Source: Capitulum mitella (Eukaryota; Arthropoda; Thecostraca; Pollicipedomorpha; Pollicipedidae). From it: a stretch of 64,000 nt of DNA. How positions within the stretch are numbered: the stretch's first letter is position 1; each line of letters starts with the position of its first letter. The position numbers were made by a program, and so were the translations under genes. Where the stretch lies: NCBI GenBank assembly GCA_030062745.1, contig CP099844.1:25792596-25856595 (forward strand), read 5' to 3'. The notes beneath the pieces were generated by a model. That model did not search any database. It worked only from the letters and a program-made list of their open reading frames with translations, and was not told where the DNA came from. This document shows, one piece after another, positions 8,157 through 30,905 of this stretch.

Positions 8157-8158
<2 letters not shown>

Positions 8159-8639: not shown

Positions 8640-9440
8640 ACGTACATTTCGAGGTTCCAATACGATTCCGGGACGCAGTCTGTCACTTGCAGTACTTGCA
8701 AGGAGGCTTTCAAGCGTGGCCTTTGCCCCGTAAGGAAGCTGGGTCATGCGTTCATCAGTACATGTCTCCGTTCGGGGAAGAAAGCATTTGACAGCTTTAA
8801 ACCTCACTAAGGGTGGCAAGCGCACCAGCTGGCGGTTCGGTACCTGATATCAAGGCTCGCGCCCTTATTCAGCGCATGTACTTTCTATGGCCGGGAAGGC
8901 GAAAGAGGATGCAGGATGCCCAAGCTACTCTGCGTAGCATATTTGATGCAGTTCAGTACATTGTTACTCCAAGTCTCGCGTCTGGGGACAAGAGGAAGAC
9001 GGCAACTTTCACCAGTTTCTGTACCTGCTGGAAGGCTTCGCGCCTGGACTGACGGCATGGCGTCAGAGAGGCGGCATGCTTACACATCGCACCAGAGTAA
9101 TCGGAAATCCTGGATCTCATGGCTAGTGAGACTTGTAAACGAGATCCACCCCAGAGCCATGCAAGAAGACAAGGCAGACAGCGGGAATCGCCGGCGTCCC
9201 TTCGCGCTGATGGTGGACAAGACGCGTGACATTTCTCGTCAAGAACGGCTAACCATCTGTGTCCGCTACGTTGATGACGGTTTGGTCCTCCACGAGATTT
9301 TCTTGGGCTGTGTGCAGCAGGCTCAACAGCATCGGAGAGTCTGACTAGTGTCATCAAGAACGTTTGATCCGGCTAGGTATTTCCTTGGATGACCTGCGAG
9401 GCCGGTGCTACTACGGAGCTTCCAAGAACAGGTCGATTCA
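8640..9440 (+). pseudogene. hAT-A transposase N-terminal half, degraded (TTF-type zinc finger plus DUF4371)
   Basis: DNA transposase remnant of the hAT superfamily (DUF4371/ZMYM1-like type). In order along the plus strand I see a zinc-finger-like block (YDSGTQSVTCSTCKEAFKRG near 8655-8715, then FISTCLRSGKKAFDSFKPH), then KRMQDAQATLRSIFDAVQYI near 8905, then the DUF4371 core FALMVDKTRDISRQERLTIC near 9201-9260, and finally a piece resembling the family's IIKD-LIRLGIS-DD-RG segment near 9350-9410. These lie in different frames, so several indels have broken the gene. The usually acidic E of the DET motif is K here; the copy at 48201 keeps E. No C-terminal dimerisation domain follows. Family-level recognition is secure; activity is excluded. 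Confidence 0.82.
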
Positions 9441-10632
9441 AGGGTTAGTTTGGGATGATATGCTGGTACAATAGGTATTTTGAAAAAGTTGTCATAAGAC
9501 ACTGCAATCTACGCTCTATACGGGCAGACAAATCGGCACAGCAGTCGTAGTTGAGAAGAACTAGGACACTAATTGTCTTTGCATTATTTGGTTTTCTGCA
9601 ATTTGCACAGATTTTCGTGGCGCGTTTTTCGTTACTCCACGTCATAGTGGATACAACAAGCAGGTGCCTAAAATTTCCATGCGGGAATGTTCTGCAAAGT
9701 GGAAGTTTAATGCTCCAGTTCTATCCTTTAAAAATTATATCAAATATACATCAAATATCATACATATATTTCATATATAGTCAAATACACATATTTCTGC
9801 AATGCATAGTATGTATGGAACATAGAATGCACAACTGACTTGCTTTCTTCAGTTGCATCTTCTTTTCATTGACTTTCACTAGTTATACGACTTGCTCCAT
9901 TCACTATCCAGCCCTTGGTTTCAATCTTCCATTCATTTTTATTTCACCCATGATTGTTCTAGGACAGAACCTGTCCAAAGCCTGGCCACTCCAGTTCAAT
10001 CCCCTCCTGAGGTTGCCGTCACAGTGGCCCCTCGTCTTCCTTGTCCCAGGCTGGCAGGTCTGCAGCTCATGAAAATCCTGCAAGTAAGTTGGTTTTACAG
10101 CATTGTTGTTATAAGAAAATTGTAGTTGTCTTATATAACCGAAACATTTTTCATATAATCAAATTATCAGTTCCTGTGCCACGCAACCAAGATGGATATT
10201 TTGTATTGCTGTGTTTCTGCACCACTTTCAAGCCAGTGACGGTGACTGATGTGCAGATGTTTTGCTCTCTCATTCCGTATGCTTTTGGGCTTACGAGCTA
10301 CCCTCCCCACGCAAGGCATATTTGTTTTGTGGCGTGTATCATAACGGGCAGTTTCAGACATCCCATCGGGCTTGCAACCGGCCACCTTGCATACTGTATC
10401 AGCATCTAAGTGTGGCTGAATGCAAGGAAACCAGATAGGCCCTGCCCCGATAGGATGCCATTATGTCAGCAGTCCACATCCAGCCCGGCCCCATGCATTT
10501 CAGGAAAGTGGAAAGGACCACGCTTAGTCCACTGAAAAGTGCTTACATTCCCAGATATGTAAAACTGTAAAAAGTCAAGACTGAATCGTGCCAGGCACAA
10601 AGTTCACAATCCACATTCATCATAATAATATA

Positions 10633-11132
10633 NNNNNNNNNNNNNNNNNNNNNNNNNNNNNNNNNNNNNNNNNNNNNNNNNNNNNNNNNNNNNNNNNNNN
10701 NNNNNNNNNNNNNNNNNNNNNNNNNNNNNNNNNNNNNNNNNNNNNNNNNNNNNNNNNNNNNNNNNNNNNNNNNNNNNNNNNNNNNNNNNNNNNNNNNNNN
10801 NNNNNNNNNNNNNNNNNNNNNNNNNNNNNNNNNNNNNNNNNNNNNNNNNNNNNNNNNNNNNNNNNNNNNNNNNNNNNNNNNNNNNNNNNNNNNNNNNNNN
10901 NNNNNNNNNNNNNNNNNNNNNNNNNNNNNNNNNNNNNNNNNNNNNNNNNNNNNNNNNNNNNNNNNNNNNNNNNNNNNNNNNNNNNNNNNNNNNNNNNNNN
11001 NNNNNNNNNNNNNNNNNNNNNNNNNNNNNNNNNNNNNNNNNNNNNNNNNNNNNNNNNNNNNNNNNNNNNNNNNNNNNNNNNNNNNNNNNNNNNNNNNNNN
11101 NNNNNNNNNNNNNNNNNNNNNNNNNNNNNNNN
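10633..11132. other. Assembly gap (500 N)
   Basis: Exactly 500 unknown bases, which suggests a fixed-length placeholder and not a measured size. The left flank is AT-rich unit A sequence and the right flank is extremely GC-rich. Long frames that appear to cross it are artefacts of reading N as an open codon. Confidence 0.98.
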
Positions 11133-11560
11133 CCGGCGCGCGGCGGCCACGCCGCGGCGCTGAAGGCCGGCCGCGGAGCATTCCCCACCAACGGAACAGC
11201 GGCGGATCGGAAAAACGCCCGGCCCGCGCGGCAGCTGGCGGCACGCGCCTGCGGCGGGCAGCGCGCACCGCGACCGTCTCAACAGAACGGCGCCGAGCGG
11301 GGGCGGGGGCCAGGTCGCGCGCGGACACCCGGAGAGGAGGGGCCGCGCGGCCGGCCATCTTCCGCCCATGCAAATCGGCCGTGGGTCGGCGGGGCCGTAA
11401 ATTTCCCGGCGGCGTGTTCGCGGCGCGGCGCCGGGCGTATCAGGCGGCCGGCCGATCAAAGCCGGGCCGGCCCGGTCGGCCGGGCAGCCGAGCGGGAAGG
11501 TCCGGCGCCATCGGGGCGCGGCACGGAACGGAGTCACGGAACCGCGGGGAACTCTGAGGA
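11133..11560. promoter_or_regulatory. CpG-dense block next to the gap
   Basis: Strongly GC-rich sequence packed with CpG and GGCC/CCGG words. It contains an octamer ATGCAAAT at 11368-11375 and, just before it, ggccatcttccgccc, which resembles a YY1/ETS core. No coding exon is recognised. It could be a CpG-island promoter of an unseen gene across the gap, but no transcription start can be placed. Confidence 0.4.
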
Positions 11561-13530
11561 GTCCATCAGATGCGCCTAATGGACTCGCAGTCCTAACCAG
11601 GAAACCGTGCGTCGCGCCCAGAGTAAAATGCTGACCGTTCGAAATTCAGGAATTTCGAGGTTAAAAAAGCGGAGAAGACAGTACAAAGAACTGTGCATTA
11701 TTACCAACCCTGCATGAATCAGCCGACCTCCTGTCCGAATCCCCGTGCATGTCTCGTCGACGAACGTTAACAGTTCCAGTGTTTCGATATCCAGTGCCAC
11801 TTTACGAATAATAGACTATGAGGCAGAAAGTTCACGAACCATCCACCCAACAATCCTGAACGGTGACAAGGCAAGTAGTTAGTCCTAAATGGGAGATACG
11901 ACGTCTTATGGCGTGGTGTAATTCAGGTCCTAAAACTGCGTTCAGGAAACTATGTCATAGCGTCCACAAAGAAACCTGTTCTTTTCTTGTTCCTTGCAGC
12001 ATTTTCTCTGAGGTCGACAGCGCTGAGTGACTGCTCCATCGCGCCCACCAGAAACAGAAAATGTAATAAACCAACAGGAAAAAACAACTACATACCATGC
12101 AATATGGAACAGTGGAACCAGTACACCACCAGCAGCAGCTGCGATTCCACAGTGTTATTTGTCCGAAGAAGTGGCACACAGGGTCTTATGGTAGTTTCGG
12201 GCAGCGGTGCTCCGAGAGCGAATTATTCTCCAATTTGTGGTGTCGAAGCAGTACAATGGCTGCGCTTCGATGACAGGCCCGCGCCCAAGAGATTACGTTT
12301 CAGCGCGCGGGCAGACGACGTTATCCTTTCCCACGGCATGATTTCGAACATTCCCTCGTATCACTAAAACCGTCACGCCAGGAACGAGTCACGAAGCGGC
12401 CGAATCTTCACGCGGTCCGCTTTCAACCGCCGCAGACTCGTTCGGGACAGGTCTGTGAGGCAGACGACCGGGACGCGTAACCGGGTGGTGACCGCACACG
12501 CCGACCGTGCCCGTATCACGGGAGACGCACTGCGGCAACAACGCCTCCCGCCGCCCTCGCCCGACATGTCCTCCAGCGTGTGATCCGGCTTCGTACAGCG
12601 GTCCACCTGGTACCACTGTACCGCACGGCCCCCCGTGGTGGTGTCTCGGGCTTCTGCCTGATAATGGTGCGGGTTCCGGGTACCATGTCCATTTTGCCTC
12701 GTTGAAGCCGGCTTAAGGGCCGCTGGTTCGGGGAAAATCCCTCGTATCTGTACGGTCATCGCTCGCAACGATCACGAAGTAAATTTCGGCCATCATATCG
12801 CCATAGACACACCACGCAGAGCTAAGCGTATTCATGAACTTATTATGCGCCACCTGCTAGAGCACTGCAGTCATCCGGTCACACCGCAATTAGTCGACGA
12901 TGCTCCTCGAACAACAGCAGACGTTGCAGGTATGAAAATCCTTCCGCAGCGTGAACATAGAGGGGCGCCAGCATTTCGAATGTGGTGCCATTCCAGATAA
13001 AGCCCGGACAGCCCTCTCCAGGCCATCATGGTTAATCATTCCTCCAAACGTTCAAGTGTCTGGATACACACCAGGCCAATTATGTGGAAGACCTGGTCAC
13101 GAAGGTGCGAATCCGAGAAGAGTTGACGGTGTGAGACAGGACCCGTTCCAGACGACCCTCCCTCGGAGCCAACTTTCTTCCCGTCCATCAGGACCACAGG
13201 GGAGCCGGAGTCAGTGGCGACAGCGCTGCGATTCGGGAAGAGCACCAACTTCACGACGGGCGAAAATACGACGTCGGACGACGCACGTCGCTTCGGAAAG
13301 TCGGACGACTGACGTGACCTGGTGGCTTCAAGACACCGCTGCCCTGCGCGGAATAAAACGGGACATAGCCGACAGACGACTGACCGTTGCCAGACCAGCG
13401 ACGGCGGCAGAGAGATGCCTGGCGCGAAAATCACCCGCCGGCGGCACGGCGAGTGCCGGCCGCTGTCCGGCCGCCGGACAACAAACAGGACGGGGCGCCG
13501 AATCAGCGGCCCGGCTGACGCCTGTCGCCG

Positions 13531-13555
13531 TCACGTGACCGGCGGGATGACGTCA
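13531..13555. promoter_or_regulatory. E-box plus palindromic CRE cluster
   Basis: TCACGTGA at 13531-13538 (CACGTG E-box, bHLH-type) is followed nine bases later by TGACGTCA at 13548-13555 (full cAMP-response element, bZIP-type). The region is CpG-rich and followed at 13806 by a TATAAGG word. The motifs are exact; function is inferred. Confidence 0.4.
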
Positions 13556-16500
13556 CGCGCGGAGCATTCTCCGCTCAGAGAGGCGGCCGTGTGGACGACA
13601 GCAGAGCGTCATCAACACAGCGATATAGCGATACAGCGTCCCTGCACGAGTTCCGGTCCGTACTGCGTGGGTAAAGCTGCAGCAGCGCCTCGTTTATCCC
13701 ACACGAGGGATTCACAAAGGGCTCCCCAAACAGGCGAATTCTGCAGAAAGTAGCTCGCCTTTCAGCGGTGGGATCGTGTTCGTGGCCATTGGGCCATTCG
13801 TGGGATATAAGGGGAGAGAAGGCCAGTTTCCATCACGATTTTTCCCAGCATAAAAAAAAACACAAAGACGATTCTAGCGTTGCCCCTTTTCTGACGAAAT
13901 AATTTCAAGACAGGCGCAGGGACGACTGAGTTCCTAGCGGAACAACGTCACTGATGCCAGCAGACTACCTTGGCCGTCCCGACATCGGCCCAAACAGGGT
14001 TCCTCACCCGTCCTCGAGATCGAATTCGTCCTCAGCAAGTCACCACTTCACAACAGCTGGCCAAAGCTACCGGCCAACCGCATAACGGAGTCCCGCGCGA
14101 AGCACTCGCCAGGCTCTGCCCCGTTAACATCTGACCTCACGTCTCCGTTGGCGCCTCGTCTCTGGGAGGTGGCCAGACATCGACTCGACAAACCTGAGCA
14201 CCAGACGACAGACAGCACCAACAGATGTTACTGCTTTCCGCCGGCTCCCGGTAATTAGACCGCCTTTGTCTGTCCTGGACAATGGCGCATCCAGACCATA
14301 TAATACGGGGGAGGGGCAAATCTCCATTCACGTCACCTAACGTTACCCCAAGGGTTGATTTCTTCTCGGATTTCAGTATCTTCGCTTCGTCATATTCTAA
14401 AATCAGCATATATATAAGCAGCTTTTGTTTCGAAAACAATACATCTCACGTTCCGTCCGAAAATGGGGTAAACGACACGTAGGAGCCAGGATTTCGCACG
14501 AAAGAGTGGACCATGCGAGGATGCACGCGGAATTTAATTCGGGCGGGGGGGGGGGGTAAAAGTGCAAGAGCGGGCCCCGTCCTTTCCTCCATCCGAAGTC
14601 TTCGGATTTCAATCGTTAGTTTTTTCATGCCCCCATTAACAAAGAAAGGAGAATAACAACTAATCTGCCGGTGATTTAAGAGTGCTTAGAACATCTGAAA
14701 GCTTGAAAAATATTTCAGCAATGGAAGATGCAGAAAATAGAGGAAAGGGAAACGGAGCGAAGGAGGGGGCAGAGGGAAGTGGGGGAGGACAGAGAGAGGG
14801 CGAGAGAGAGAGTTCGGGTAGTGTGGTCCGCAAAATCTGATCTGCTCAACACGTTCTCAGGGACGGACCTATCTTGCGCTATGAGTCAGAACAGCCACCC
14901 GGGAATGGCATGTTCAGGCAGTTGAAGATGAAAATGGGTAATGTGGGAGCCTATAGTGAGGCTTACGGACCCTGGCCTAAGGACTCTGTATAGAGCTTTC
15001 ACTCACTTCATTGTCTAAAATTCGGACGGAGCCTTCTATCTGCAGGATTCTGGCCCACTGGCCCCTGGCAACACGCCCCAACCAACAAGTCCCCTCGCTT
15101 ACGGGCCCCTAGCCTGCGGGTCCATCTGGCACACAGGACCCTACTCAACGTGCGGGCCCTGGTTCGTAGATCTTTAGCCGGGCCCCTAACCACTGACCCC
15201 TGAATCTGAATCACGTTACCTGCGGGATCCTCGAAAATTTAGGGGGGCCAGCTGACCCATATGACCACCCGCGTGCGCTATTGACACCATAGCCCCGATG
15301 GCCCCCCTCCTCGATCCGCCCCTGGTCCTGGGAAGAGTGCAAAACGTCTGGACCGGTCGCGGAGCACGGGCTGGGCTTCCCCGCCAGCGGTGACTCAGGG
15401 CAGCGACTGATCGGCCCGATAGCCAGAGACCCGACCGGCCGACTACGCGTCCCACGGCGCCGACGACCGGCGCTCGGCGAGCGCCGTCACTGACCGCACG
15501 GTCGTGATCCGGCAGGTGTGTCCGTGAAATAGCCGATCAACGAGGGGATTGGGCACGAGAAAAACAGCGTCAGGAATGGTCTGTTGGCACAAGAGCATAA
15601 GCAAAGACGTCACGAATTAAGGAAAGAGCCCAATATGATATGCACTAAAATATCTACAGCAGTGGAATGTTCCGCGTGGGATTACGGAAATCCGCGTACC
15701 ATTACGGAAAACGGCGGGAAAGAAAAAACCGCAGTATACAACAATCGGCGGTATCACGCGTTGCGAAATTGACTTACGAAACTGGCCTTCTAGTGGCCTC
15801 TACGACACAAGCAACGGAAATTTACGGGGTCCGATATCCGAATTTGACGCGACACAAGTGGTCGCGCCACTGGGGGTGGGGGCAGCCGAGGCAGCTGCTC
15901 TCCCCAGCTCGGGAAAAAATAGCATTATTTCAATGGCGATGCATGGAAAGAAAAAAACTCGAAACTGGCCACGCAGCCTGAATAAGTCGAGCCGCCACTG
16001 CACGAGAAACCAGATCAATGAAAGGAAAAAGTGGCGAAAGAGTACCCGCACACAAGAAGAATTCGGCTGAGTTCAAAAGAGTTCAACTGGAACCGATGAG
16101 CAAGAAGTGTCCTTCCTGAAACCCACCACAGTTCTGTTGCCGGCCCCTCCAAATCGTTCATTCCGCGTATACCGGTGAGGCAATCTACCTCGACCGGCGT
16201 CTGTTCTGGCCTCGGGCGCAGTCAGCGCCCTGGAGTCGACAGCTGGGCTTCCTCCGAGAAGAGCCGGCCGCGCCGGTGCGTCACGTTCGCCGCGACACGT
16301 GCGGCCCGCTCTGCACAGGGGCGCCCGGCGGCAACTGAGCGAATTACGCCACAAAGGAGACCTGCCGTAGCTGGGCTGTCTGGACGGGTATAGTTCCTCC
16401 CCCCCCCCACACACACACACGGAGTAATGCCGGCCAGCCGGGACAAAGACAGATAGATCCTAACGGACCAGCCGGCCCCCAAGCGGGAGGAACAACACCT

Positions 16501-16704
16501 TGAACCATCCTTCAGAGCTTGGCTACTTCACAGCTACCTCGGAGGGATTACAGGGCTATTGCTGAGCACGACAGTCCCATTACACGGGATATGCTTGACG
16601 TGACTCAGTGTCCCCCTCACTGTTCTTGCGTAACTCTTGAGCTCAAGCTCGAGCCGCCAGCGCCGGCGGCCAATGCAATGTGCAGCACTGCGCAATGTGC
16701 AGGT

Positions 16705-16717
16705 CAAAATGGCCGCC
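16705..16717 (+). promoter_or_regulatory. YY1-like motif in a CpG-rich block
   Basis: CAAAATGGCCGCC resembles the YY1 consensus AAnATGGCnGCC, which often lies just downstream of transcription starts. It lies about 200 bases beyond PCGF exon 4, inside what should be intron 4 of the minus-strand gene. A single motif is weak evidence. Confidence 0.3.
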
Positions 16718-16907
16718 GCTGACGGGTGTCGTGCCGCCGTCACGTTCCCACCGGTGCCCGGTCTCCACGGCCACGGCACGGTGGGCGAGGGGCGGCGCGA
16801 CCACCCACAGGTGGCACTCGACACCGGCCTGTCACCAGACTGGTGTTCAGGGACTCACTGAACTGCCTGGAGCACTCGACGGCAAAGAAGCTGACTCGCT
16901 CACTCAC

Positions 16908-17004
16908 CTGCAGTACTCGAGGCTGAAGCTGATGGGGTCGGTGAGCGTGTACACAAACTGCTGCGAGCTGACGTCACCCCGCCTCTCCGGGGACAAACTC
17001 CGGT
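16908..17004 (-). CDS. Psc/BMI1-like: PCGF exon 4 (linker with SLSLEY-like motif)
   Basis: Acceptor tgtccggcag, donor GTGAGT, 97 bases. Encodes [20 protein letters not shown] and [12 protein letters not shown]. The order SP-RRGD...ISFSLEY parallels TPEQRGD...MSLSLEY in Drosophila Psc/Su(z)2. It ends two bases into a codon, so a further exon must follow. A TGACGTCA word at 16969-16976 lies inside this exon and another at 17023-17030 in intron 3. Confidence 0.9.
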
Positions 17005-20000
17005 CTGCCGGACACACAACAGTGACGTCATAACACATCACACGCATCAAGTGCGCGCGCATTGGGCGGAGACAAACTGCGACACATGAACGCTATCAAT
17101 GCACGACATCAGATTTGCCATGTCACATCGAAAACAACGGTGACGACAGGGTGACACGTCACACACCGGCCTCTCAGGCGCCTGCCATCGGCAGTGCTCA
17201 GAATCGAGTGCCGCCGGGCAGCGACGGCTACCGCCCGGCGGGGGAAAGTGTTTCAGGCGCCGATCTGAGTGGGCCAGCGCTTCAGTCTGGGATCTTGATG
17301 ATCGGGCTCACAAAACCAGCGACTGGCGCAGGAGAAACGCATCGACACACGCGCACTGGTCCGGACGACGACGAGAGGGGCACCACGCATATCCCCGGCC
17401 TGGACGGATGCCTCGGCTCGGACCGATGCCCGCTCTCTACACACGTGCGGCATCATGACGGCATGAACACCGCCGCCGGCAAGACGATCTTGAGGACTGA
17501 ATGTCGAAACTTCCCCGTGAAACCGCTCTGACGCTCCTGTGACGATTCCCTGCGACTGGAGACTGGCACAACATTCCCCCAACTGTAAGCATGCGAGACA
17601 TCCAATACCTTTCACATAGTCCGGTCATGAAGACACCAAGCGAGAGGCGTCGCTCCGAAAGTGGGCCACGCCGGAAACGACGCTCACCTCTCTGAGGGTG
17701 GTGCTGGTAGAAGTCCCTGCGTCGCAGCATCTCGTCGTTGAACAGGCGCGGCACCAGCTTGTACACCACCGACTGCAGGGTCTGGTCCGGCCTGGGGAGG
17801 AACGACTGGTTAGTGGTCAGGTCAGGACACTGCCTGACCTGGGCCATGCCGCAGGGTCTGGTCGGGGCTAAGTAGGATGACCCGTCAGTGGGTCGGACAG
17901 GGCACGGTCCGACCCGGATCGCATCACACGGTCCGCCTGACATGGCCAAGGGCGCGGGACGCAGCAATCACCACGATGGCAGGACATTTGCTACCGGGTC
18001 TACCTGGCCAGTTGATTCCAACACAATGCTCCGAACTAGAAACCCGCAGCCGGAGGGTTCCCCTTTTTCGGAAGCCAGCGAGCGTGCCCACAATCGCGGT
18101 GACGCGCCGACAAGCTCCGGTCGGCTGCCGCCCGCCGCCGGCCAGCTGGCCAGACCACCGCCCGCGTCGCAGCCATCACGTCACCCTTTCAGCGCTGCTC
18201 CCCGCGCACGGGGTCCGCCACAGGATCCGGCGGCCCGCCGGCGTCCGCGTACTCCGCCGGCGCGGTCAGCCGCGGCGCGCGCGCGGGCGGGCCGATCGGT
18301 TTTTGCCGGCGCGGCCGACACGGGATACTAACGAAGACGGCTTGTTCTAATTACGCGGCGACAGAGCCGGCGCGCGGCTCCGGGCGACGCGCGACCGGCC
18401 GACGTCAGAGAGCGGCCCGCGACGTCAGCCGACGTCAGGGAGCGGTCCGCGCCGTCACAGGGCAGCGGTTTGGGACAGAAGTGGCGACCCTAGCTGTCGG
18501 AAGGGCCAGGGAGGTTGTGACGGCCTGGTCGCGGTGGTCAAGCAAGAGGACGAACGGATCATGCGGGTCGCAGCCCACCGATTTCCAGAGGCCAACGACG
18601 TGTCGTCTGCCCGGCATGATGACGATGAAGTAGGCCTCTTAAAGTAAGACTTTCTCTGAAGAGCATGCAAGCCTGCTTTTCCCTTCTTCACGGACTACTC
18701 CGCCCGCAGGCCTCGCCTAATTTAAAAAGAGCCTCTTCTGAAGCGATGGTTAAGCTGCGACTGAACTGATGCCAACATTCGAAAAACATGGCGTCAATTA
18801 CCGGCAGCGGCGGCACACTTTCCCGCTTCAAAACAGGCGCGTATGGAACGCGGCCCCAAAACGAGCCGATGGCGGCGGGAGCTCACTTCTTTATCGTTCG
18901 ATAACCAATACCTAACCACGGGCTCCACCGCCGCCCCGTCAATTAGGCCGGAACGTCAGGTGAGCCGGCGCACCAATTTCCTCGGCCGGAACGGCGGCCG
19001 AGAGCGCGCGCTCCGCCGCCGCCCGGGCCCGCGCGCCGCCGTTTAACAGCCCGAGCGTTTCCATTAAACGATTAAACCGGATTGATAGGATCCGTTCCCC
19101 TTCCCGGCGCGATTAAAGCGGCCGCGTCGGCGGCGCGCACCCGCCGGCGCCGGCGCCCGGCCCTGCCGGCCGTCGGCGGGTCACGTCAGGTCACCGGGTG
19201 AAACCGGCGACGCCGGCGGCCTCCGGGCCGGCCCGCGCCGGACCGCCGGAGGACGCCGGGGCCGGACCGGCCGGGGCGTCATCCGCGGCCCCCGCGGCGC
19301 CGGCGCGCGGCGGCGGTCGGCCAGCACGCCTCCGACGCGGAACCGTAAAGGGATCGGAGTCGATGCATCAAGCCATGCTTAGAACGGGCTCCGATCGCTA
19401 ACATCACCTCAGCAAATAACTGGATCAAGTTCACGCAATAAAAACAAAAAATGAGACCAGAACGGCAGCTGAAACAAGACAGCAGTGCTTCTCTCGAAGA
19501 CGAGATCCAAGTCAAAAACATTGTCTCGGCGCTGGGTGCACTGTCCCAAACATCGTCTTTTGTTCGGAAAGGCGGGACACACAAGAAGAGTGCCAACGGT
19601 AGGTATTCGCCACCAGTGCACCCAACGGACGGCACGGCAATTTGACAATTAACCACCGCGCAAATGACATTAAAAGCTGCCCCACGCAATACCGTAGCGA
19701 CCCAATCACGAACACCGGCCCAGGAAAGTATCCGGGAAAATGTCATACTCAGCCGCTGACACACGCCACACAATGGAGTCGAGTCCCTTGTGATCATCCC
19801 CCGTGGCGTGTCCAAATGGCCGAAGAGCATGCGAAAGAGCCCGAAATCGCGTCATCAGCACCGCTGGCGACCACCGAATTCCCGGGAAGACTGAGTGGCG
19901 GCTGGTTCTGGACGTCCGACGGAAAAAGGTCGGTAAAAAAGCCGACGCGGCGCCGCGTCCTCGGCCGATCCCGGCCTGCAGGAGGCCCGCGCCGCCAGCT

Positions 20001-22541
20001 GACGCGCCGCAGTGGGGCGAGGCGGGGCTTTTTGTCACCTGACAGTTAGCGCCCGCTCTGGCCGTACAAACCGCGAGGCCACGTCCGGGCGGGAGGGGGC
20101 GTCGAATGACGCGCGCCCCCCGAACTTAACACGGCGTATCTGTTTCGACGTTTAGGCCTGGGTGGACACCGCACAATGTCCAGACGCGACCTATGCAGAT
20201 GAATGCCACTGATTGGCTCTCGTGGATTTTCGTTCGTTTTTTTTCGGACTCAGCACCTTCCTCTGTCAGTCATCGTCCTCCGTCGCTCTCGAATTTTAGC
20301 AAAGTATACCAAAGCACAGTCATTCAGTGCATCAAGACGTTTTCTTCCTTTGGCGGCATCAGATCACTCTAGTCTCCAAAGAATCGGCTGACCACCCGCC
20401 CACTTCACAAGAAAACTCGCGTTGACCTCGGCGGCTGGACACGCCGGGACCGTTTGTACGTTACACCGAGTCAGGTAGCTTCACGGGCCCCGGTACATTG
20501 GCGGATCCGGGCCACTCCCAAAAAATACATGGCTTTTACTACACAACCAGATTCAAACCAGAGTTTGAAGTCGCTGGACCCTCCGAACCTACAGCGCCTT
20601 CTACCCCTCCCTCGGTCGCCGACTTGCTGCTGACCTACCATCCATACTCAGTCGCTGAAGTACACTCTCAACCCACGGCCAGCGTCTTCCGCCTTCCCCC
20701 CCCCCCGATGTTTACTCGCTGAGCTACCATCCATACCATCCAACCAGCAAATTCTGCTGTTCCCCCCCCCCCCCGCCTCAAAAAACCCGAGCCGCTGGAT
20801 CCGTCCCTGGCCCGGTGCGGTCTCATCAGCTGACGGATCGGACTCCAGCCACAGTTACGGCCGCGCCAGGAAATGGCACGTCCACTCTTCGTACTCACCC
20901 GCCGGCCGACCCATTTGTCCACCGGTCCACAGCTCTCATTACAACGCCTCACACCGTAAAGCACATTGCCGCTTTACGAGTCTCCGAGCGGACAGCGTCC
21001 CCCTCCCCATCCTCGGAGACCCTTCTCAGAACAGGAACACGTCAACTCGGCTCATTTACACGGCGTCGAAAGAGCACGTTCGCACAAGAGCTTCTGATGG
21101 TCAGACGACGTCTGAAGACGGTCTGAAAATTGCTCCGCTAACCACAAGCCACGCCACAAACGATCCCCTCACATGAACTTTCCAGTTCTTTCGAGCCCGA
21201 CTCGAAATCACTGGAACACGAAGGGCACGAAATTCAGGCACGGAATTCATGACATCATCTCAGGCCACTGGGTCGTTCATGATGCAATGATACCACCAGC
21301 GATCGTTCAAAATCTGTTAAGAACTTGCAGTTAAGACAGTGAACGCATCGGAATGGAAAAATACAGTTTATGAACCAACAAACGCGTCAAGGCCGGGCCA
21401 ATTATACATTTGATGACGAGAAATACGCGGTATTTCGTTCCCGGTAGGCAAAATAATCCGTGAAACAAAGGACTGGGCAAGGGGCGAGGGAGTCATGGTT
21501 CACAGTCTATAATTCCGAATGCCAGCTCTACGACGCTGCAAAGAGAACACAAAACATGTCGGTCGCCCAACCCCACTTTTCCCCACGTCTCCGTACTTTT
21601 CGTCACGCAAACCGTTACCAAATTGAATAAACCATCAATTTTCTCCTACTCATGCGTGGCAGATAGGGGAGAAACTGCCGCAAAAAAGCATAATCAATTA
21701 ACTGTCCGGCTACACGGGTTGCAGACCCAGGACCATCCCTAGTGCTCCACAATCCAATTTCAGTAACAATCCGATCCAGGACCTCATAACCTGCTACGAA
21801 GACTGATGCATCCGACCAAGGATTGAATTTCAATTTCCGCTGAAATGCTGGTCGTGGCTCGCATTCTAAACGACAGATAACGATATAAGACACATACGAC
21901 CACTTCACAGAATCCTTCAGCCTGGGGCTGGCTCACATCATACAATGCTCTGGAGTCTTCGATACTACGGCGGCCGCCGCACAAGATGCTGTACTGACCT
22001 GAGAGCTGCAGTCAGTCTGGCCTGGTTCAGCTGGGTTCCACATGTTGGACAAGCGCACGTCTTCTTCACGTGATTCATGATGCACGATTTGCAAACTGCA
22101 AAAGTCGGGCGAACAACAATCAGCACGACACAACAAAGCAAGGCCTCTAATTAAGAGCCTCCGAAGCTTGCCAAAACACAAGGTCGGCCTATCGCACCTG
22201 GCTGCCGTGTGGCAAACATCACTGTCCCACCATTAACTCCAAGGTCCGCAGGATGCTTTTGATTTCGTCAGGTTCGCCGGCCGTTCAACACCAGCTTATA
22301 TTTGTCTTTTGCTCAGGGGTACACACTGCAGCATCACACGTGACCAAACCCAGAAGAAACCTTTCCGACTGTTTCAGGAAACCACAAACGGAGGCAAGAG
22401 CGGCACGAATCTGAGCGCCGTTCGCTTACACGAGTGGAGGCACTCCACCACGGTGAAGGCGTCCACGAAGTAGCCGCCGCAGAGCCGGCACGTGAGCTCG
22501 GGGGCGAGCTCCCTGATCTTCAGCCGGCGGGCCCGCTCCAT
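16908..22541 (-). CDS. Psc/BMI1-like: Polycomb group RING finger protein, PCGF2/PCGF4 (MEL18/BMI1/Psc) class, 5' four exons
   Basis: Chromatin repressor subunit expected in the nucleus: PCGF proteins pair with a RING1-type E3 in PRC1 to monoubiquitinate histone H2A. Four exons (22430-22541, 21999-22095, 17688-17791, 16908-17004) have AG/GT borders and join in phase to 136 codons with no stop. An in-frame TGA lies 28-30 bases before the ATG, fixing the start. The product aligns to vertebrate BMI1 without gaps from Met1 to Pro102. The C3HC4 RING ligands are all present: C18, C21, C34, H36, C39, C42, C53, C56. Then come [20 protein letters not shown] and RRDFYQHHP, matching the family block, and SFSLEY, matching SLSLEY of Drosophila Psc. 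The C-terminal RAWUL domain is not seen, so the gene is incomplete here. The RING's second half (residues 44-69) is unusually divergent, including the loss of the PLL motif found in most family members. Confidence 0.93.
17005..17687 (-). other. PCGF intron 3
   Basis: GC-rich intron between exons 4 and 3, bounded by a consistent donor and acceptor. It contains a palindromic CRE (TGACGTCA) at 17023-17030. No other gene is seen. Confidence 0.7.
17688..17791 (-). CDS. Psc/BMI1-like: PCGF exon 3 (post-RING conserved block)
   Basis: Acceptor tccccag, donor GTGAGC, 104 bases. Encodes [20 protein letters not shown] and the following [15 protein letters not shown]. This is the family block TLQDIVYKLVPGLF-EM-RRRDFY, with Arg replacing the usual Gly after LVP. 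The intron before it is about 4.2 kb. Confidence 0.95.
17792..21998 (-). other. PCGF intron 2
   Basis: About 4.2 kb between exons 3 and 2. It contains dense CpG blocks (18120-18470 and 18950-19340), a 30-bp tandem repeat at 18398-18457, and homopolymer C runs near 20697-20706 and 20763-20774. The frames open in this interval have no family motifs and run mostly through CpG-rich sequence. Confidence 0.65.
18398..18457 (+). repeat. Two-copy 30-bp tandem repeat carrying GACGTCA
   Basis: The 30-base unit starting gccgacgtcag is repeated immediately (18398-18427 and 18428-18457) with three or four changes. The unit holds GACGTCA cores, a CRE-related word, giving three within about 40 bases. It lies in a CpG block in PCGF intron 2 and could be a small intronic regulatory element. 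Confidence 0.75.
21999..22095 (-). CDS. Psc/BMI1-like: PCGF exon 2 (second half of RING)
   Basis: Acceptor ttttgcag, donor GTCAGT, 97 bases. The split Phe codon joins exon 1 exactly to give CLHS-FCKSC, as in BMI1 and Psc. It carries ligands C39, C42, C53 and C56 with the same spacing as BMI1. The loop (MNHVKKTCA) and the tail after C56 differ strongly from known PCGFs, with one additional cysteine at position 51. Confidence 0.92.
22430..22541 (-). CDS. Psc/BMI1-like: PCGF exon 1 (start codon, first half of RING)
   Basis: Encodes [20 protein letters not shown] and on to VVECLHS, 37 codons plus one base, ending at a GTAAGC donor. It contains RING ligands C18, C21, C34 and H36. CGGYFVDA matches CGGYFIDA of BMI1. 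The in-frame upstream stop at 22569-22571 supports this ATG. The sequence is CpG-rich on both sides. Confidence 0.93.
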
Positions 22542-22860
22542 TGCGGACTCCGCGCCACACGCGGCGCCTCAGGGCCGCTGAAACAGGCGTAGACCGGGCT
22601 CAGCGGAGGTTCGACCAGCCGGGCGCCGCGTCCTGCCCTTCTGCGTCCTCCGCAGGCGTCCGACGGTCAGCGACTCCACGTCCGGCCCGGGTCGGCCTGA
22701 CGCTGCCGACCCGCCCCGGTCACGGCCGAGACCCGCCCGCCCGGAAGCCCGACCCACTGCGCCAGCATGCGGTCCGCACGCTGATGACCGCCCCTCAGGC
22801 GCAGACATTTCCTCTCACAGCGACACAGAGGACCGGGCGGGGAGACGCACACGGGTCGAC
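22440..22860. promoter_or_regulatory. CpG-dense block over PCGF exon 1 and upstream
   Basis: CpG-rich sequence covering exon 1 and some 300 bases upstream on the minus strand. This fits a CpG-island-type 5' end for the PCGF gene, but no TATA or initiator can be placed with confidence. A more distant start near 26000-26700 is also possible. Confidence 0.45.
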
Positions 22861-25700
22861 CGCCCGCGAACGTATCCTGTGACTTGTGAACCCTAGCGGA
22901 GTGTCCGCAAGCACCGACGCTGGACTTGTCGCACACCAGCGGTAAGCCTCCAACGATGTGAACTCGTCATCGCTTCTTAAATATTCCAGAGTGAATCCGA
23001 TCGCGCTCCCTTACCCTAGCCGAAATAAAGGACGGGATAGAATTTCAAACCTCTCGGAAGCACCAAAGCCAAGGGGAATTTAAAACACAAAAGGACCAAC
23101 TGAAAGGGGCCAAGGTACGCACATGTCATCGCCATAACTAACAACAGCGCTACCACTTGGCCCCAGGCCTATCCATTCAAACGAATGGCACAGCGGCGAC
23201 CTTCTAGACATGGAGCCGTGGCACACCGCACGACACTTGGCGCTCGCAACGTCGTGAATGCTTCCAGAAGCACGCGCAAAAACCGCCTCGTCGAAGAAAC
23301 ATACCAAAGGCAGAGGAGATCAATCACAGTCCGTCTCGCTAGTTCCCCGATATGGCGCGGCTGAGCCGTAAACTCGTCCGGCCCAGCTTCAGTCACGAGC
23401 AGCCCCCCCCCCCCCCCAGAGACGGCTCTCACGCGGCACCAAGGTGGCCGTGCTCGGGGAGGGGGCCCGTCAAAGCCGGCGCCTTCATTCGCGACGAAGA
23501 CACACGAACGCTCGCATGTCGACGTAGAGGACAAGGGGGACACGATCGAATCACAGCGGAACAGTGGTGAAAAGGCGTTTTGGTGTTTAGCAACGCGAAA
23601 ACGAAATATCCAGGACAGGATTATGCTCCACAGAAATTCAAAAGTGTAAATAGACTTCATTCTCATTTTGGCAAAATCTCAAGCAATATGACAAATGCCT
23701 GTAACAGTACAACGGTTGCGCTGGAAAATGCGAAAAATGAATTTCAAGCCATAAAGTTTAGTAATGCCCCCGTCCCTGCCAGACCACCATAAGATGTGGC
23801 GAATGCCGAACTTCCTTGGTCCCAAACGAGGCAATCTGCGCAAAACAATGTGGACAAAACCTTACGGATACGACCCCAAACACGAAGCAAGCATATTGAA
23901 ACGACTATTAAGAGTTCGCGTTTCCTGTTTGTAGGTTCCGTAAAATGTATGTGCAAAACGAAACTGTATGCCCAAACACCAGGAATACAAACCGTTTCCA
24001 ACACTACAAGTCGGAATTTCACTGATGAAATGACAACCCTCGAAACTTCTTGTCAATCGTCGGGCCTTAGCTGATCCGCCTGGGTTGATGAAAAACGGTC
24101 CGAACAAGTGGTCTGAAAAGAATAAATGACATACACACTGCGGATATCAACTTGAACAACGCTCACTGACCTAACGTGTTTTTACCTTCCCTACATAACG
24201 GCACATTCTTGCTGAACGATTTTTGACTGGACACTGGATCTCTTTTTGGCAGAAATTTGACGTTAAGGAAACAAAACAGCAATATTTGACATACAAACGT
24301 TCTTTCACGCCCAGAGCAATCATAACATGCGGAAAGTGCACCTCTGATGCACTTCAGATACGTCTTTGCAACAGCGTAAGACGTTGCGAGACATAGATAG
24401 TTTACGCGGTCTTTTTTCGCCACACCATTTCAACTCGATGTATCATGCTTTCATGAATGTCAACTGGGTATACTTACTTTTCATTCTTCAGCAAAAGATA
24501 ACATGTGAGAATTTACCACAGTCCAAGAACATTATCAGAATTTATAACTCCACATTTTCATGTTTTCTTTGAGGCGAGAACACAAGCTTAAACAAGAGAC
24601 GACGGCTGTCGGATTAAGAGCTTCTTCAAAGTTATCGTGGTTCATAGTGAGACCGCATCACCACCCCATCAATCATGGCAATTATCTCTGCAGGGCTGCG
24701 GGGGACATGCCCCCGCAGTTTTCCAGCACTGTTGCTTTGTTCCCCCCATTTTTAAGGCATCACCTACGTATTTCCAATTAGCGACACAGTGCCTTAAACT
24801 CTGAAATCTAACAAATGGGATTTCAAACGTAGTTTGCCATACAACGCCTGAAAAAAGTTGTCTTCATCCCCCTGCCCTATTTATTCTTGGTGGATTGCAG
24901 ACAGGTTGTCCTCCCCCGTCCCCATTCCGACATTGCGGCTAAACCCATGCCATCGATAATTCAAGCAAAACAGCTTCATGTACACTGGCGCCGTATACAT
25001 ATAACAAATCATTTTACATGCATTCGTAAACACATATCGTCGGTCTGACTACTGGGTTCAATGCTAAACAGCCAGACAATGTTTGGTGAAACCAATCCCG
25101 GCTTCGTGGATGTACGGCACTCATAAAGGTATTTAAGAATTCCAACCTGCCGCGGATAACGATGCTTTCTACGGGCGCTTCACCAAGCAAAGCTCTGCCG
25201 ATGGCTACAGGGTGGTATCACAGGGTTAAATAGGACTGATCTAAATAGGCTCCAACAGGGCAAAACTTTAGAAACGTCTAGTCGGTGGCCAACAGGGCAG
25301 CTATAGCACGTTTTAACAAGATGTACCAAAAATGACAGTATCATCGCCATAATAACTTGGAGAAGCCTCCTTCACTTTGTCACTCATCTGAGCATGAGGT
25401 AAAGGTTTCGCGTATTCGTGAGCAATCGAACATTTGCGCGTGTACGCTTCACTTTGTGTTCGCTTGCCCAAACCAGTTAGAAAATTCCACAAATGGGTCA
25501 GAGCTCGCTTTGCTGTGCCACGAGCGTAGCAGGGAGCATGCTAGGACGGCAAACCTTCTGACAATGTTCACAGGTCTACGTCCAACATGAACGTGAGCGA
25601 AACCCCATCCCGGGAGCTAACTACCAAGAACGCCCATGAACACAGAAATCGCAGTCTTCCCCCCAACTAGCAGTCGGACGGAGAGCCGAACCCGTCACCG
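22861..25700. other. Intergenic or 5' intronic stretch without a recognised gene
   Basis: Composition falls from GC-rich to mixed. There is a C16 run at about 23402-23417 and a perfect 9-bp hairpin at 24696-24718 (ctgcggggg, 5-base loop, inverted copy). No exon or transposon protein is recognised. Confidence 0.5.
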
Positions 25701-26720
25701 CCGTCCCACCGCCTGTGTCTGGCTCCTGCCGATGGGCCCCGGGCGGCTAATGACCGACCCGGCAACAGCGCTGCGCGCGCGCCGCCTGCACGGGCCCCGC
25801 CGGGCCATTATCATAAATTACCGGCCGGCCCCCTCGCCGCAGCGTGACGCGCAGCATTTTCAGCGGGACTGAAAAGCACTCCAAAACTGATCGATCAGCA
25901 GCCTTTGAGCCCACGGGAGCCAGCCGGTCAGGAGCAGGTCTGCCCTCCTCTCCAGCTGCTCAGGCTCGTGGGGAGATGAGCTGCGGCCGCGCCAGACGCC
26001 TATTTTTGACGAGCGTCCCTGTGACGTCACCGGCAGGCCGGCAACGGCCACGCGTCCGCCCCCGGGGCAGCCCCTTGCCGACCTGGCACGCTGCCATGCC
26101 GTCCAACGCGTGTCATTGGTCTGCGCCGGCCTCTGCCGTCGCGCCGAAACAAAGCGGGCACATGTAAACAGACCCGACTGCGCATGCGCGGCCGACCGGC
26201 GGCGGACGAAAGCTGTCCAATAAATAACGCAACAGAAACCCGGGCACGTAACTCACGAACGACACGACGTATCGAAAAACCAATCGCACCATCGAATCGA
26301 GCATGCCCGAGTTGCACTTACCGCTGATTATCTCCTCTGAAACTGCTGCATTACCGTGGAAATCGTCCGAAACCCGCGCCCCACGCGCACACCGCCACAC
26401 AGACGACCTGAAAAACGCTTTTCCAAGCGGGCCGCAGCCGCCGAATCCCCCGCGGCGGTCACGTGACGCAAGTTCCCGGATGAAGCGCTCCCCACTGGCT
26501 CCGTCATTATCCAAGGCCGGAGAAATTCGCTTTAGCGTTTCGGAGGGTCGATGGCAATTACGGCTGGCGGGCGGGCGGCGGCGGCGGCGGACAGAGAGCG
26601 GGAGCCGGGTGGCCTTTTGTGCGGCGGCGGCCGGCTGCCGGGGAGAGAGCGCCGGAGCGGGCGGCCGGGACAACGGTCAACAGGACGCCGGCCTCACCGG
26701 GTATAATTAAGGGGGACGCC
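25700..26720. promoter_or_regulatory. CpG island-like block with NRF1 and CRE sites
   Basis: GC-rich block with a full palindromic CRE TGACGTCA at 26022-26029 and a perfect NRF1-type palindrome TGCGCATGCGC at 26179-26189. A ggcggcggcggcgg run lies near 26575-26592. NRF1 sites mark CpG-island promoters in animals. The block is some 3.5 kb upstream of PCGF exon 1 on the minus strand and could hold its transcription start, or that of a divergent plus-strand transcript. Confidence 0.5.
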
Positions 26721-28029
26721 GGGCGCACGGATGGACGTGGGGTGCCATTAGGGACCGGTCTGGCGTGCCCAATGCCGACAGAATGGCATGCGTGCTCGCT
26801 GCGCAGTACTGCGTTCGGCGGCCGCGGGACCCAGTAGGGTTTGTAACAGGCTAGGAAGTGATGCGTATGGCCTCGCGTGCCTGGCCTTCTGCAGTCTAGC
26901 GTTCAGGCCTGAAGATCATGTTTGTAATGCAGTTCATGGATAATTAATAGAAGCGGCAACTTTTTGGAAAACTAATGATAAATATTTCGTATAAGGTAAA
27001 ACATCCATTAAAATCGGACGAATTTAAACGTTACATGAAATATGGAAAACTTACGGACGCCTAGTAAAGTTCGCCATCCATGACACATTAGACCATTGCA
27101 TCCTTTTTAATTTATCCCATGAAAACTTCGTTTCATCTGTTGGTGATATGTCATCGAGCAATATTCCAAGCTTCCCTTTCACGATTGACTCGAATTTTCA
27201 CCGTCTGGCGTGAGGAACTTGACATGCATTCTAAAATCTTGAAAATGTCTGAAACAGTCATGCACATCTCCCTACATTTTGTTTTCATCATTACACTATT
27301 GCGGCGTTATTCCGTGTAAAGAACGTCTTGTGCCGTGTCAGTCTTATTCATAGTAAGGAGGGGCGGCGTTGGGGCACTGAAAATGGGAAAATAACTCAAA
27401 TATTTCGGAATCCCACAGGCCCTTTTAAATGATATTATTTCATCTTATTCACGTTATTCCTTCGACACCCCACACAGCGTTTTCGCAGCCGAAATAATTC
27501 CCTCATTTGTGTCTTGGTTTACAATACCTTCCACACATTTCGCTAATCACTCATGACATCACTCACGCTTTCAGGACTCTTGTCCTGGACTGACTCATCC
27601 ACAGCTCACCAAATGATGCACCATAAACAGTCGTTCATCATGACCTTATTCATGAAAAACTAACTTATTTGGCACACCCATAAGCGCACCAACCGTGATA
27701 ACGCCCACACTTTCAATTCACTTACATCTCGCTTTCATGAAATGAGGGATTCTGTCTGCAGTATTGACAATTTGTTCAAACCCACTACCGTTTCACTGGC
27801 CTCACCCGTTCGGGAACTTATTTGCCTACATTCACAGGTATCGTTTTGCCTAAATGATTTGAGGACTGGGAGCCGAGGCGGAAGACAACCTAATTTCTCA
27901 CCAAATGTGGGTTTCTCAACAGCTTTACGTCACTTCAACGGCTGCGGTTTCCATTTGTACTAATGCTCTTAAATAGATAATGAGGTGCAAATACCCCATT
28001 ATATATTTGTGAAGCCACTAACTTGTCCC

Positions 28030-28031
<2 letters not shown>
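26721..28031. other. AT-rich stretch without a recognised gene
   Basis: From about 26900 the sequence switches to AT-rich. No exon is recognised. Bases 27860-28031 resemble 30714-30856: both have gagccgagg, then gacaacctaa, then atgggtttctcaac-like words before a (TA)n tract, and so belong to one repeat-tail family. Confidence 0.5.
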
Positions 28032-28087
<56 letters not shown>

Positions 28088-28088
28088 T

Positions 28089-28134
<46 letters not shown>

Positions 28135-28152
28135 CTGTGTGTGTGTGTGTCT
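28032..28152. repeat. Compound microsatellite (TA)n-(GATA)n-(GT)n
   Basis: TA units to about 28085, then roughly twelve GATA units to 28134, then GT units. This is a three-motif compound tract. Confidence 0.97.
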
Positions 28153-28982
28153 GTGTAAATGCTGTCTTTCAAGTGTCGTTTACAAAAGACCAACTCATTT
28201 TGGCCTTCTCTAGATTCCTTTCCTTTTGCTCAATATAGGCTCGATTCGCGTTTGTTCTTATTTCGGCCGCGTGTGGTAACATTTCGGCATGTCATGGTGT
28301 TCCATTTGCGGCATTAGCGACTGCGGAGTGGGCGTCTATTAGCGCTCGCTGCAATGAACAAATCGCGACATTTTCCTTTTTATTTCACAGTTGCTGGAAA
28401 CCTAAGAACATTAAGAAAAATGTATGGGTATCGTCGAAATCAGCAATCTTCTTTACATAAAATGTTGCTATTTTTGTTATGAAAGCAACGAAAATGAATC
28501 CGCACTTTTTGTCTTGCTGAACCTTTACGGAGGTTAAATTGCACTGTGCACGTCGATTTTATCATCTGGAAACCGTGTCCAGCCACACAAAAAGCTTTTG
28601 CAGCTGCGGTTACTTCCGTTTTAAGAATGTGCAATAGTGAAACATACATTCTCAATGTGTGGCGAACGGAACTGCATGACTTCTGGCACACTCAACCTTT
28701 AGATGTACCCACACTTTTTAATTTAACCCGGCACTGGCTGGGGATATTCTGGCACTTTCCATCTAGGGGGGAGAGGGCGCTTAGCGTCCACCTGGTCCAT
28801 CTCAAGAATCAATCGCTCGATTTCGCTGATTTAACCGGTAATCGATAGCACTCAACCGTGCGGTCTCGTGACACACGTTTGTTATGTTTGGGTCACTGAC
28901 GACGTAATAGGTCATGTCAAACACCCTCCCAAAAAGATTATTGCTTTATCATTATTATTATTAATCAAAACGAAGAGCTCAC

Positions 28983-29040
28983 CGAGACTGAAGTTTCCAT
29001 GGTAGTATGTCCCAGGCAGCTTGCAGTTCCCGAGTGCCAC
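28983..29040 (-). CDS. Possible isolated coding exon, function unknown
   Basis: A 58-base minus-strand segment sits between a plausible acceptor (gacctctggtcag) and a good GTGAGC donor. One frame reads ALGNCKLPGTYYHGNFSL, which looks protein-like, but I recognise no family and no partner exon. The short length makes chance likely. Confidence 0.22.
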
Positions 29041-29639
29041 CTGACCAGAGGTCATCAAAGGTCAAGGCCACTGGCGAGGTTTGCTTTGACGTCCGTGTGA
29101 ACAGGTCATGTAATCAGGGGCGCGGAACTCCTCCACAGTTGGGGGAGGGGCGAAGAGGGCAAAGAAGCATTTGGGCCAATTCTTTCCAGTCATCGCCCAT
29201 AGGGCCAATGTTAAACTTCAAAAAAGCTGGGGGCGGCTGCCCCCATGCCCCCCCCCCCCTTGCTTCCCGCGTCCCTGCATGTTTCCTATCGCACTGACAG
29301 GCAAGTTCTAAAAAGGCACTTTAAAACAGTTTTTCGGATGAGTAAAACCTTCGAATAACTCTCATAATCATCTATCATGCCATACAGTAACAATCTGGAG
29401 ATTCCACCGTCAAGTATAGCGAGTATAGCGTGCGTAGTTTTTTATCTCCCTCAAAGTGTCCTGTGACAAGCTTTGATTTTAATCATTTCATTGTGCTGGT
29501 GCACAAACCCGTACCTTTGATCATATATGCAACAGCATATGGACACAGATACATTAAATATACGCATCAGCTAAATAAACCGTCGTATTATAATGCACAA
29601 AGCATGCACCGAGGACGTCCGCGGGACTCCGGCTAGCGC

Positions 29640-30330
29640 TCTCCGCGTGACGAGCTTGCGCAAGTTGCAACTTATCAGCCGGCCGGGGTCTGAACAGGTC
29701 CAGCATCGTCTAAAGCCTTTTGATTAGCGTCCTTTCAGCCGGTGCCACAACAGTGCGGCGTTTTTTCATATCACAAAAACAAAGACAAATGGAGTTCGAG
29801 AAGCTTGTTGCTTCCGCTGCTCAGTGGGCCTTCAGGCTGGGCTTCACTGTGTGCACCATTCGCTCCAGCGGACCATTGGACTGTAGTCTCTAAGCCGAAA
29901 TTCTGATGTTTGGTGTCTAGTTGCGTCATGAAATCTTCAAACTCTCTAGAGGTCAGCTATGGCCGTTGTCGGTTACTGTTTGTACTGGAATTGTGTACCG
30001 CTTGAATATCTCTGACAGCTGTTTTGAGGGGGATTATTTTTTCCGTTGATACAGTCTGTGGTCATTCTGAATGAATACCAACCACTACTATAAGCCGACC
30101 GGCTTCTAAACGGTCGGTAAACGGACCGGCAAAATCCAAACGAACTCGTTGCCATGGCTTTCAGATGCACTCCCATGACTGAAGAAATACAGATGATCGC
30201 TCACTTCTCACAGCTTGACATCTAGCGCAATCCTGCACGACCTTTTCGACCTGATTTTCGACCTGATATTCATCCATTGCTACAGGCCAATGATGTGCTA
30301 CATAAAAATTAGGGATCATTTTGTTACAAA
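29640..30330 (-). pseudogene. Ty3/gypsy-like retrotransposon integrase fragment
   Basis: Minus-strand integrase core of an LTR retrotransposon, which would join element DNA to the genome. In order I see VQDCARCQAVRSER (zinc-finger tail) near 30230, PWQRVRLDFAGPF near 30140 (first catalytic Asp), a stretch matching the family's KTA-VRDIQAVF region, then PVQTVTDNG near 29970 (second Asp), and ERMVHTVKPSLKAH near 29840 at the position of the family's ER-VQTFK helix. Frames shift several times and stops interrupt. No LTR, reverse transcriptase or protease is seen nearby, so this is an orphan fragment. Confidence 0.75.
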
Positions 30331-30854
30331 AAGTATTGGAAACTAACAGAAATTATCAAAGGTTATTGGAAAATTAACGTACGGAGGCATTTAGTTCGAC
30401 AGATCGGGTGCTTTAAATTTGTATTTATAATTCTTCAAAACAAAAAAATTGTTTTGTAGCGTAGCATTTCGTAGTTGTCGCCATCTAGTGGATCCGACAG
30501 TAGCTAGTGATATATCTTGCTACTAATATGTACTGACCCGAAGTCGCTAATGACGCAAATGAAACGCCACGCTTTTTCTTTCGTATGACGTTTCGTAACA
30601 GTAACACGACTGCAAAAGCAGGTTTTAACTTAAGTTTTGTATCGATCGTTCAAAATAAAAGGCTACGGCGGCAGCAGTGATATTGAACTCAAGGACGTCA
30701 ATTTTTGTAAATGACTGAGGGGGCCGAGCCGAGGACCCGACAACCTAACCTCCACCCAAATATGGGTTTCTCAACGTATTTAGCCCACTTTTGATCAACG
30801 GAAATCTATAACTTTTTTGCTGCTATTTATCAAATGAAACTTGCATTTATCCAC

Positions 30855-30856
<2 letters not shown>

Positions 30857-30905
<49 letters not shown>
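30857..30905. repeat. (TA)n microsatellite with interruptions
   Basis: TA tract broken by one TAC. It is preceded by a tail (gacaacctaacctccaccca) related to those preceding the tracts at 122 and 28032. Confidence 0.9.

Follow-up and report, generated by a model that had tools for sequence, protein, structure and literature searches.

Commonly studied animals carry a small, conserved set of PCGF genes; the fly has two genes of the Psc/Su(z)2 type. RING1 and PCGF proteins both combine a RING with a RAWUL domain, and PCGF2/4 split from the other PCGFs at the metazoan root, according to PMC10638273. A positively charged disordered region of PSC has been linked to chromatin compaction (PMC8594731), and the paralog pairs BMP8A/B, DDX19A/B, and TUBG1/2 are described in PMC2720389 as cases of gene conversion and concerted evolution in duplicated genes. 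Here we analyzed a 64,000-nt stretch of the Capitulum mitella genome (C6:25792596-25856595, hereafter the window; the assembly spans 477 Mb in 16 contigs), which carries a real and constrained fragment of a PCGF2/4 gene. The gene is of a known kind but lies within an unusual local expansion, a cluster of eight copies whose exons form a mosaic of nearly identical and strongly diverged blocks. We refer to the window gene as copy B, to its sister copies as A and C-H, and to a separate gene on the same contig as K.

The window gene lies on the minus strand and comprises four coding exons, at 22541-22430 (exon 1; 112 nt encoding 37 residues plus 1 nt, with the start codon at 22541), 22095-21999 (exon 2; 97 nt), 17791-17688 (exon 3; 104 nt), and 17004-16908 (exon 4; 97 nt encoding 32 residues plus 2 nt). 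A GT donor follows all four exons, AG precedes exons 2-4, and the phases are compatible; the joined exons total 410 nt, or 136 codons plus 2 nt. Each exon is identical to its counterpart in copy A (112/112, 97/97, 104/104, and 97/97 nt), and copy C matches at 110/112, 94/97, 103/104, and 96/97 nt, respectively. A phmmer search of the PDB matched the product to BMI1 chain 9dby_K over residues 1-135 (E 5.6e-40) and to a RING1B-BMI1 chimera (E 2.2e-45), and Pfam recovered an N-terminal C3HC4 RING with both PF00097 (E 2.6e-08) and PF13923 (E 1.8e-07) above cut-off. The splice sites, phases, and PDB matches bear out a preliminary description of this locus, which had proposed four phased exons encoding 136 residues of a PCGF2/4-class protein. 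Although these exons are real, the description of a gene in four exons captures only a 5′ fragment with an open donor at 16907; the window gene is the 5′ part of an apparently functional PCGF2/4 gene. We also scanned for an alternative or mutually exclusive exon 2 between exons 1 and 3: of the eight phase-compatible C..C-C..C candidates, three coincided with or extended the known exon, and the remaining five (within 19337-19556) were unlike a RING and were rejected.

The gene is cut short by a 500-N assembly gap (10633-11132), which interrupts copy B within intron 4, short of its RAWUL exons and last exon. Neither tblastn with BMI1 and Psc queries nor Pfam on the minus-strand frames of 731-10632 and 11134-16907 detected a RAWUL domain in the window. 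This is because of the gap, since in the sister copies the RAWUL domain lies past the corresponding point; in copy A the RAWUL exons start ~1.8 kb beyond it.

We compared residues against BMI1, Psc, PCGF3, PCGF5, and PCGF6, all of them as reference versions that did not come from database records. Aligned to BMI1 without gaps, the window product is identical at 57 of 103 positions (24/37 in residues 1-37, 5/26 in residues 44-69, and 23/33 in residues 70-102), and it has C18, C21, C34, H36, C39, C42, C53, and C56, which we take to be the eight RING zinc ligands; the originally proposed gap-free alignment between Met1 and Pro102 and the retention of every ligand are upheld, as are the extra Cys51, the Ala52, and the lack of a PLL motif. 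Other parts of the preliminary description fared less well. Ala52 is indeed present, but the Tyr52 said to be usual is a residue that varies, being T, D, R, and F in PCGF3, PCGF5, PCGF6, and Psc, respectively. Similarly, the low identity to BMI1 in residues 44-69 agrees with the claim that this segment is very different from known PCGFs, but the claim is overstated: fly Psc is about equally far from BMI1 here (7/24 identical, with the window gene matching Psc at 8/24) and is likewise without PLL. At position 62 the window product has Gln where BMI1 has K62, but it shares R64 and the VYKLVP segment with BMI1. In BMI1, both K62 and R64 are described as salt-bridging to acidic residues in histones H3 and H4 (PMC10081246); given Q62 with R64 kept, nucleosome contact by the window protein may therefore be altered rather than lost.

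A single query of the genome returned 30 matching rows, of which 22 fell in eight PCGF2/4-like copies on C6, two in gene K, two at a PCGF3-like locus on C10, and one at a RING1-like locus on C14, the only RING1-like locus seen; three weak rows (one on C8 and two on C9) were left out of the locus reading. The eight copies occupy a ~0.45-Mb cluster at 25.776-26.213 Mb, in which the intervals between genes were read in part. Taking the spans of the search rows as coordinates, subfamily 1 comprises copy A (25.776-25.782 Mb, minus strand), the window copy B (minus strand), and copy C (26.207-26.213 Mb, plus strand); subfamily 2 comprises copies D (25.892-25.898 Mb, minus strand), E (26.047-26.050 Mb, plus strand), and F (26.160-26.170 Mb, plus strand); and subfamily 3 comprises copies G (25.963-25.964 Mb, plus strand) and H (26.091-26.092 Mb, minus strand). 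In subfamily 3 the last zinc pair is longer by two residues (CPALTC and CPAATC), such that C-x4-C replaces C-x2-C and exon 2 measures 103 nt. Gene K (27.986-27.992 Mb) lies 2.2 Mb from the cluster and carries CPICDVQVHKTKPLLSIR and a RAWUL domain; its segment 44-69 is identical to BMI1 at 20 of 26 positions, and we label it the more canonical PCGF2/4 gene of this genome. A tandem array, detected through self-matches, lies at C6:27999133-28001999, ~7 kb past the gene K RAWUL. The window gene had been suggested to be a lineage-specific paralog, which within this genome is supported by the local cluster beside the more canonical gene K, but it is one of eight copies rather than a lone gene. The cluster appears to be specific to the lineage as far as can be seen from one genome; a literature search of partial coverage listed no account of expanded PCGF or Psc genes in crustaceans.

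The sister copies indicate what the gap has removed. Exons 1-6 are present with splice sites in place in copies A and C-H (the exact 5′ border of exon 5 is not fixed for D-H), and joining exons 5 and 6 to the start of the last exon gave a Pfam RAWUL match (PF16207) above cut-off in all seven, with E values from 3.3e-18 in copy A to 7.5e-11; gene K also exceeds this cut-off, for eight of eight loci. The last-exon frame is open to a conserved tail in four of the seven sister copies (A, 934 codons; D, 791; E, 1034; G, 633). The 933 residues counted in the last exon of copy A include 96 K+R and 50 D+E, for a net charge of +46, and the last 400 residues have net charges of +35 in A, +33 in D, and +32 in E, the whole C-terminal region of E being net negative at -39. 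Judging from copy A, the full protein would consist of a RING, a RAWUL domain, and an extended C-terminal region of low complexity and net basic charge, a plan like that of Psc.

In a tree of RING plus RAWUL regions, in which copies A and C represent the window gene, the cluster, gene K, BMI1, PCGF2, and Psc are split from PCGF1, PCGF3, PCGF5, PCGF6, and the C10 gene with support of 100/98, which supports the proposed PCGF2/4 class. The label Psc/Su(z)2-like goes further than this result, in that the tree places the cluster on the PCGF2/4/Psc side but does not show direct orthology to Psc or Su(z)2. The window gene resembles PCGF2 and PCGF4 (MEL18 and BMI1) in its ungapped RING from Met1 to Pro102 with its ligands, in the RAWUL domain of the sister copies, and in its placement in the same clade, and differs from them in segment 44-69, in the replacement of K62 by Q, in the 934-codon last exon of copy A, and in belonging to a local multigene cluster. 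Like Drosophila Psc it has no PLL motif, and with Psc and Su(z)2 it may share a long net positive C-terminal region, as seen in copy A. A 22-residue segment of the window gene also resembles the Psc segment EQRGDD..LIFSPSDDMSLSLEY, and the exon 4 product resembles the part of Psc that links the RING and RAWUL domains. The cluster differs from the Psc/Su(z)2 pair in its eight copies plus gene K and in the net negative C-terminal region of copy E.

Evidence for constraint comes from copy A, which equals the window copy in exons 1-4. Between A and C these exons carry seven synonymous and no nonsynonymous changes (nonsynonymous divergence, dN, of 0), whereas introns 1 and 3 are unalignable, with ~48% identity in alignment against 37-48% and 42-45%, respectively, in five shuffles each; introns 2 and 4, compared by BLAST only, share short matching pieces. 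The RAWUL exons of the same pair have a synonymous divergence (dS) of 0.65 and a dN of 0.145. By these comparisons, the RING part of the window copy is not decaying. The preliminary description had named a second, canonical gene together with relaxed constraint in this copy as the combination that would count against it; a second and more canonical gene K does exist, but relaxed constraint is not seen in the RING part.

We compared dS for exons 1-6 in five within-subfamily pairs (A-C, D-E, D-F, E-F, and G-H), giving 30 comparisons. The values are bimodal: dS does not exceed 0.30 in 19 comparisons and reaches at least 0.53 (up to saturation) in the other 11, with none between. A permutation test of heterogeneity, in which codons were shuffled among exons, gave 0/5000 in each of the five pairs, of which the three from subfamily 2 (D-E, D-F, and E-F) are non-independent; Fisher tests used exon groups picked post hoc, and the permutation tests are the ones to trust. 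The exons that are homogenized vary by subfamily and therefore homogenization is not a property of the exon: dS across exons 1-6 is 0, 1.0, 0.14, 0.9, 1.11, and 0 in G-H and 0.06, 0.30, 2.88, 0, 0.12, and 1.15 in D-E, such that exon 6 is at 0 in one pair and 1.15 in the other, and exon 3, at 2.88 in D-E, is at 0 in A-C. The ends of the nearly identical blocks around exon 4 also depend on the pair, reaching ~450 bp into the downstream intron in D-E and 276 bp upstream in D-F. In the last exon of A-C, D-E, D-F, and G-H, identity is mostly 0.4-0.6 (in A-C across ~1.8 kb), rises to 0.95-1.0 in the final 400-1000 bases, and falls near the stop codon; last-exon BLAST blocks end within ~35 nt of the stop codon in all five pairs. 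An asymmetry at the 3′ edges of the tracts was apparent at first but was gone once exon 4 was included. Relative to the BMP8A/B, DDX19A/B, and TUBG1/2 pairs, the likeness lies in patches of high identity beside diverged regions in paralogs on one chromosome; the tracts in PMC2720389, however, contain introns, as that screen required, whereas here many stop at or near exon edges beside largely unalignable introns.

We read this mosaic as the outcome of ectopic gene conversion confined to blocks that selection has kept similar. A PCGF2/4 gene would have duplicated to give the cluster, leaving a more canonical copy 2.2 Mb away; conserved coding blocks would then have been copied repeatedly among members of a subfamily, with introns and fast-evolving segments too diverged for conversion and some exons escaping it and diverging. 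The protein is most likely a core subunit of Polycomb repressive complex 1 (PRC1), and it would most likely pair through its RING with a RING1 protein as an alternative PRC1 core subunit, the one RING1-like locus seen being that on C14. Taken whole, a functional PCGF2/4 cluster gene shaped by exon-wise conversion is the explanation we consider probable. Several observations weigh against it: 14 of 19 low-dS exons lose ungapped identity no more than 20 nt beyond their 3′ edge, and 8 of 16 do so within 20 nt on the 5′ side (three exon-5 rows with an unfixed border being excluded), and blocks ending at coding borders are not predicted by conversion alone unless heterology sets their limits. In addition, the last-exon frame shuts before the conserved tail in three of the seven sister copies (C, 187 codons; F, 941; H, 97), whose tails lie in a separate open stretch in another frame (the tail of C has the same frame number, though with intervening stops), which may reflect truncation, unrecognized introns or different splicing, or assembly errors. 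On the phylogenetic side, monophyly of the cluster is weak (59/82), the RING-only tree resolves little, the human and fly rows are likewise reference versions that did not come from database records, and genome coverage is this one arthropod. Conversion also makes any tree of the cluster genes a mixture, with phylogenies that differ by exon.

The match of the near-identical blocks to coding borders, mostly splice donors plus the stop codon in the last exon, is what would be expected if the low-dS exons instead reflected very strong selection on synonymous sites, through splicing, RNA, or overlapping signals; that exon conservation depends on the pair rather than the exon, that the exon 4 blocks end differently within one trio and reach far into introns, and that the A-C last exon is mostly so poorly conserved make this quite unlikely. 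Conversion mediated by cDNA was also suggested by blocks that often end at exon edges, but we rejected it as a general explanation: around exon 4, the D-E and D-F blocks extend hundreds of bases into introns, and the last-exon blocks stop near the stop codon without the 3′ untranslated region. One may also postulate that the window gene is a decaying paralog that is open by chance, or that the cluster includes several broken members. The presence of gene K, the short last-exon frames of C, F, and H, and the end of the window copy at a gap would all fit such a scenario; we nevertheless give it very little credence, given no amino acid changes in 136 residues relative to copy C despite unalignable introns 1 and 3, splice sites that are kept, RAWUL domains in every sister copy, and last-exon frames in A, D, E, and G that run uninterrupted to the tail over 633-1034 codons. 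A functional role outside PRC1, in which the changed RING would have lost its RING1 partner, would accord with the divergence of segment 44-69, with the C-x4-C of subfamily 3, and with the change of K62 to Q62, given the histone salt bridges of K62 and R64 in PMC10081246. Against this, the RING has all eight of its ligands together with R64 and VYKLVP, the RAWUL domain is kept in the sister copies, and Psc, which in the fly belongs to PRC1, diverges there to about the same degree in segment 44-69; we regard this alternative as rather unlikely.

A separate question is whether copies A and B are alleles or duplicates. They have 19.8 kb in common, with 309 mismatches in 19647 aligned bases (1.57%) and 410 of 410 coding bases identical; window positions 11133-30891 repeat C6:25770197-25789925 at 97.5% identity by BLAST. 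Copy B may be a second haplotype of A left in tandem by unmerged overlapping contigs, in which case the cluster holds seven genes. Beyond the near identity itself, the homology in B starts with the base immediately following the 500-N gap, at a contig end, while that in A stops in an (AT)n tract at the start of a transposon-like element, after which the left contig ends at the gap; true tandem duplicates, however, are also often broken at gaps. We consider tandem alleles somewhat likelier than a true duplicate. The question bears on gene count only (seven versus eight) and not on the reality of the gene.

Several other features of the window were noted. The gene lies in a GC-rich block (11133-26999) with GC fractions of 0.49-0.65 in 1-kb bins, apart from one bin of 0.435 at 24-25 kb, and CpG observed/expected ratios of 0.89-1.31. 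On the strand opposite the gene, A exceeds T across 11133-23999, with skews of 0.07-0.26 in 12 of 13 1-kb bins and -0.03 in the 20-21 kb bin, which is consistent with transcription-linked strand bias. Within intron 4, a block at 13420-13559 has ~77% identity to the copy C intron, has stops in all three sense frames, and includes TGACGTCA and CACGTG words; BLAST of intron 4 of copy B against copy C gave no other match past the edge of exon 4, and this block is a candidate regulatory element. Beyond the gap, a 13-kb palindrome at C6:25790247-25803225, which begins ahead of the window and takes up window 1-10632, consists of two ~6.15-kb inverted arms, 98.9% alike, around a ~0.7-kb loop. Its end coincides with the 500-N gap and another copy of its element, ~91% alike, lies at ~43.3-49.9 kb; an inverted pair of transposons or an artifact of the contig end may explain the palindrome. 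Pieces of a hAT-type transposase occur on the plus strand at 50498-52380 (DUF4371, E 2.2e-16; hAT C-terminal dimerization domain, E 2.1e-07).

For the Polycomb system, our results tentatively raise the possibility, which we hold as doubtful, that a core subunit has expanded into a multigene family whose exon-sized modules for the RING, linker, RAWUL domain, and C-terminus are independently homogenized or released by conversion, yielding a combinatorial set of PCGF partners for RING1 that includes C-x4-C RINGs. With RING and RAWUL modules that change among eight PCGF2/4-like copies, the cluster would make it possible to test how much a PRC1 RING can vary and still keep its partner. The exon-resolved mosaic beside unalignable introns is also an unusually clean case for asking what limits gene-conversion tracts, and it carries a warning that trees of such genes differ exon by exon.

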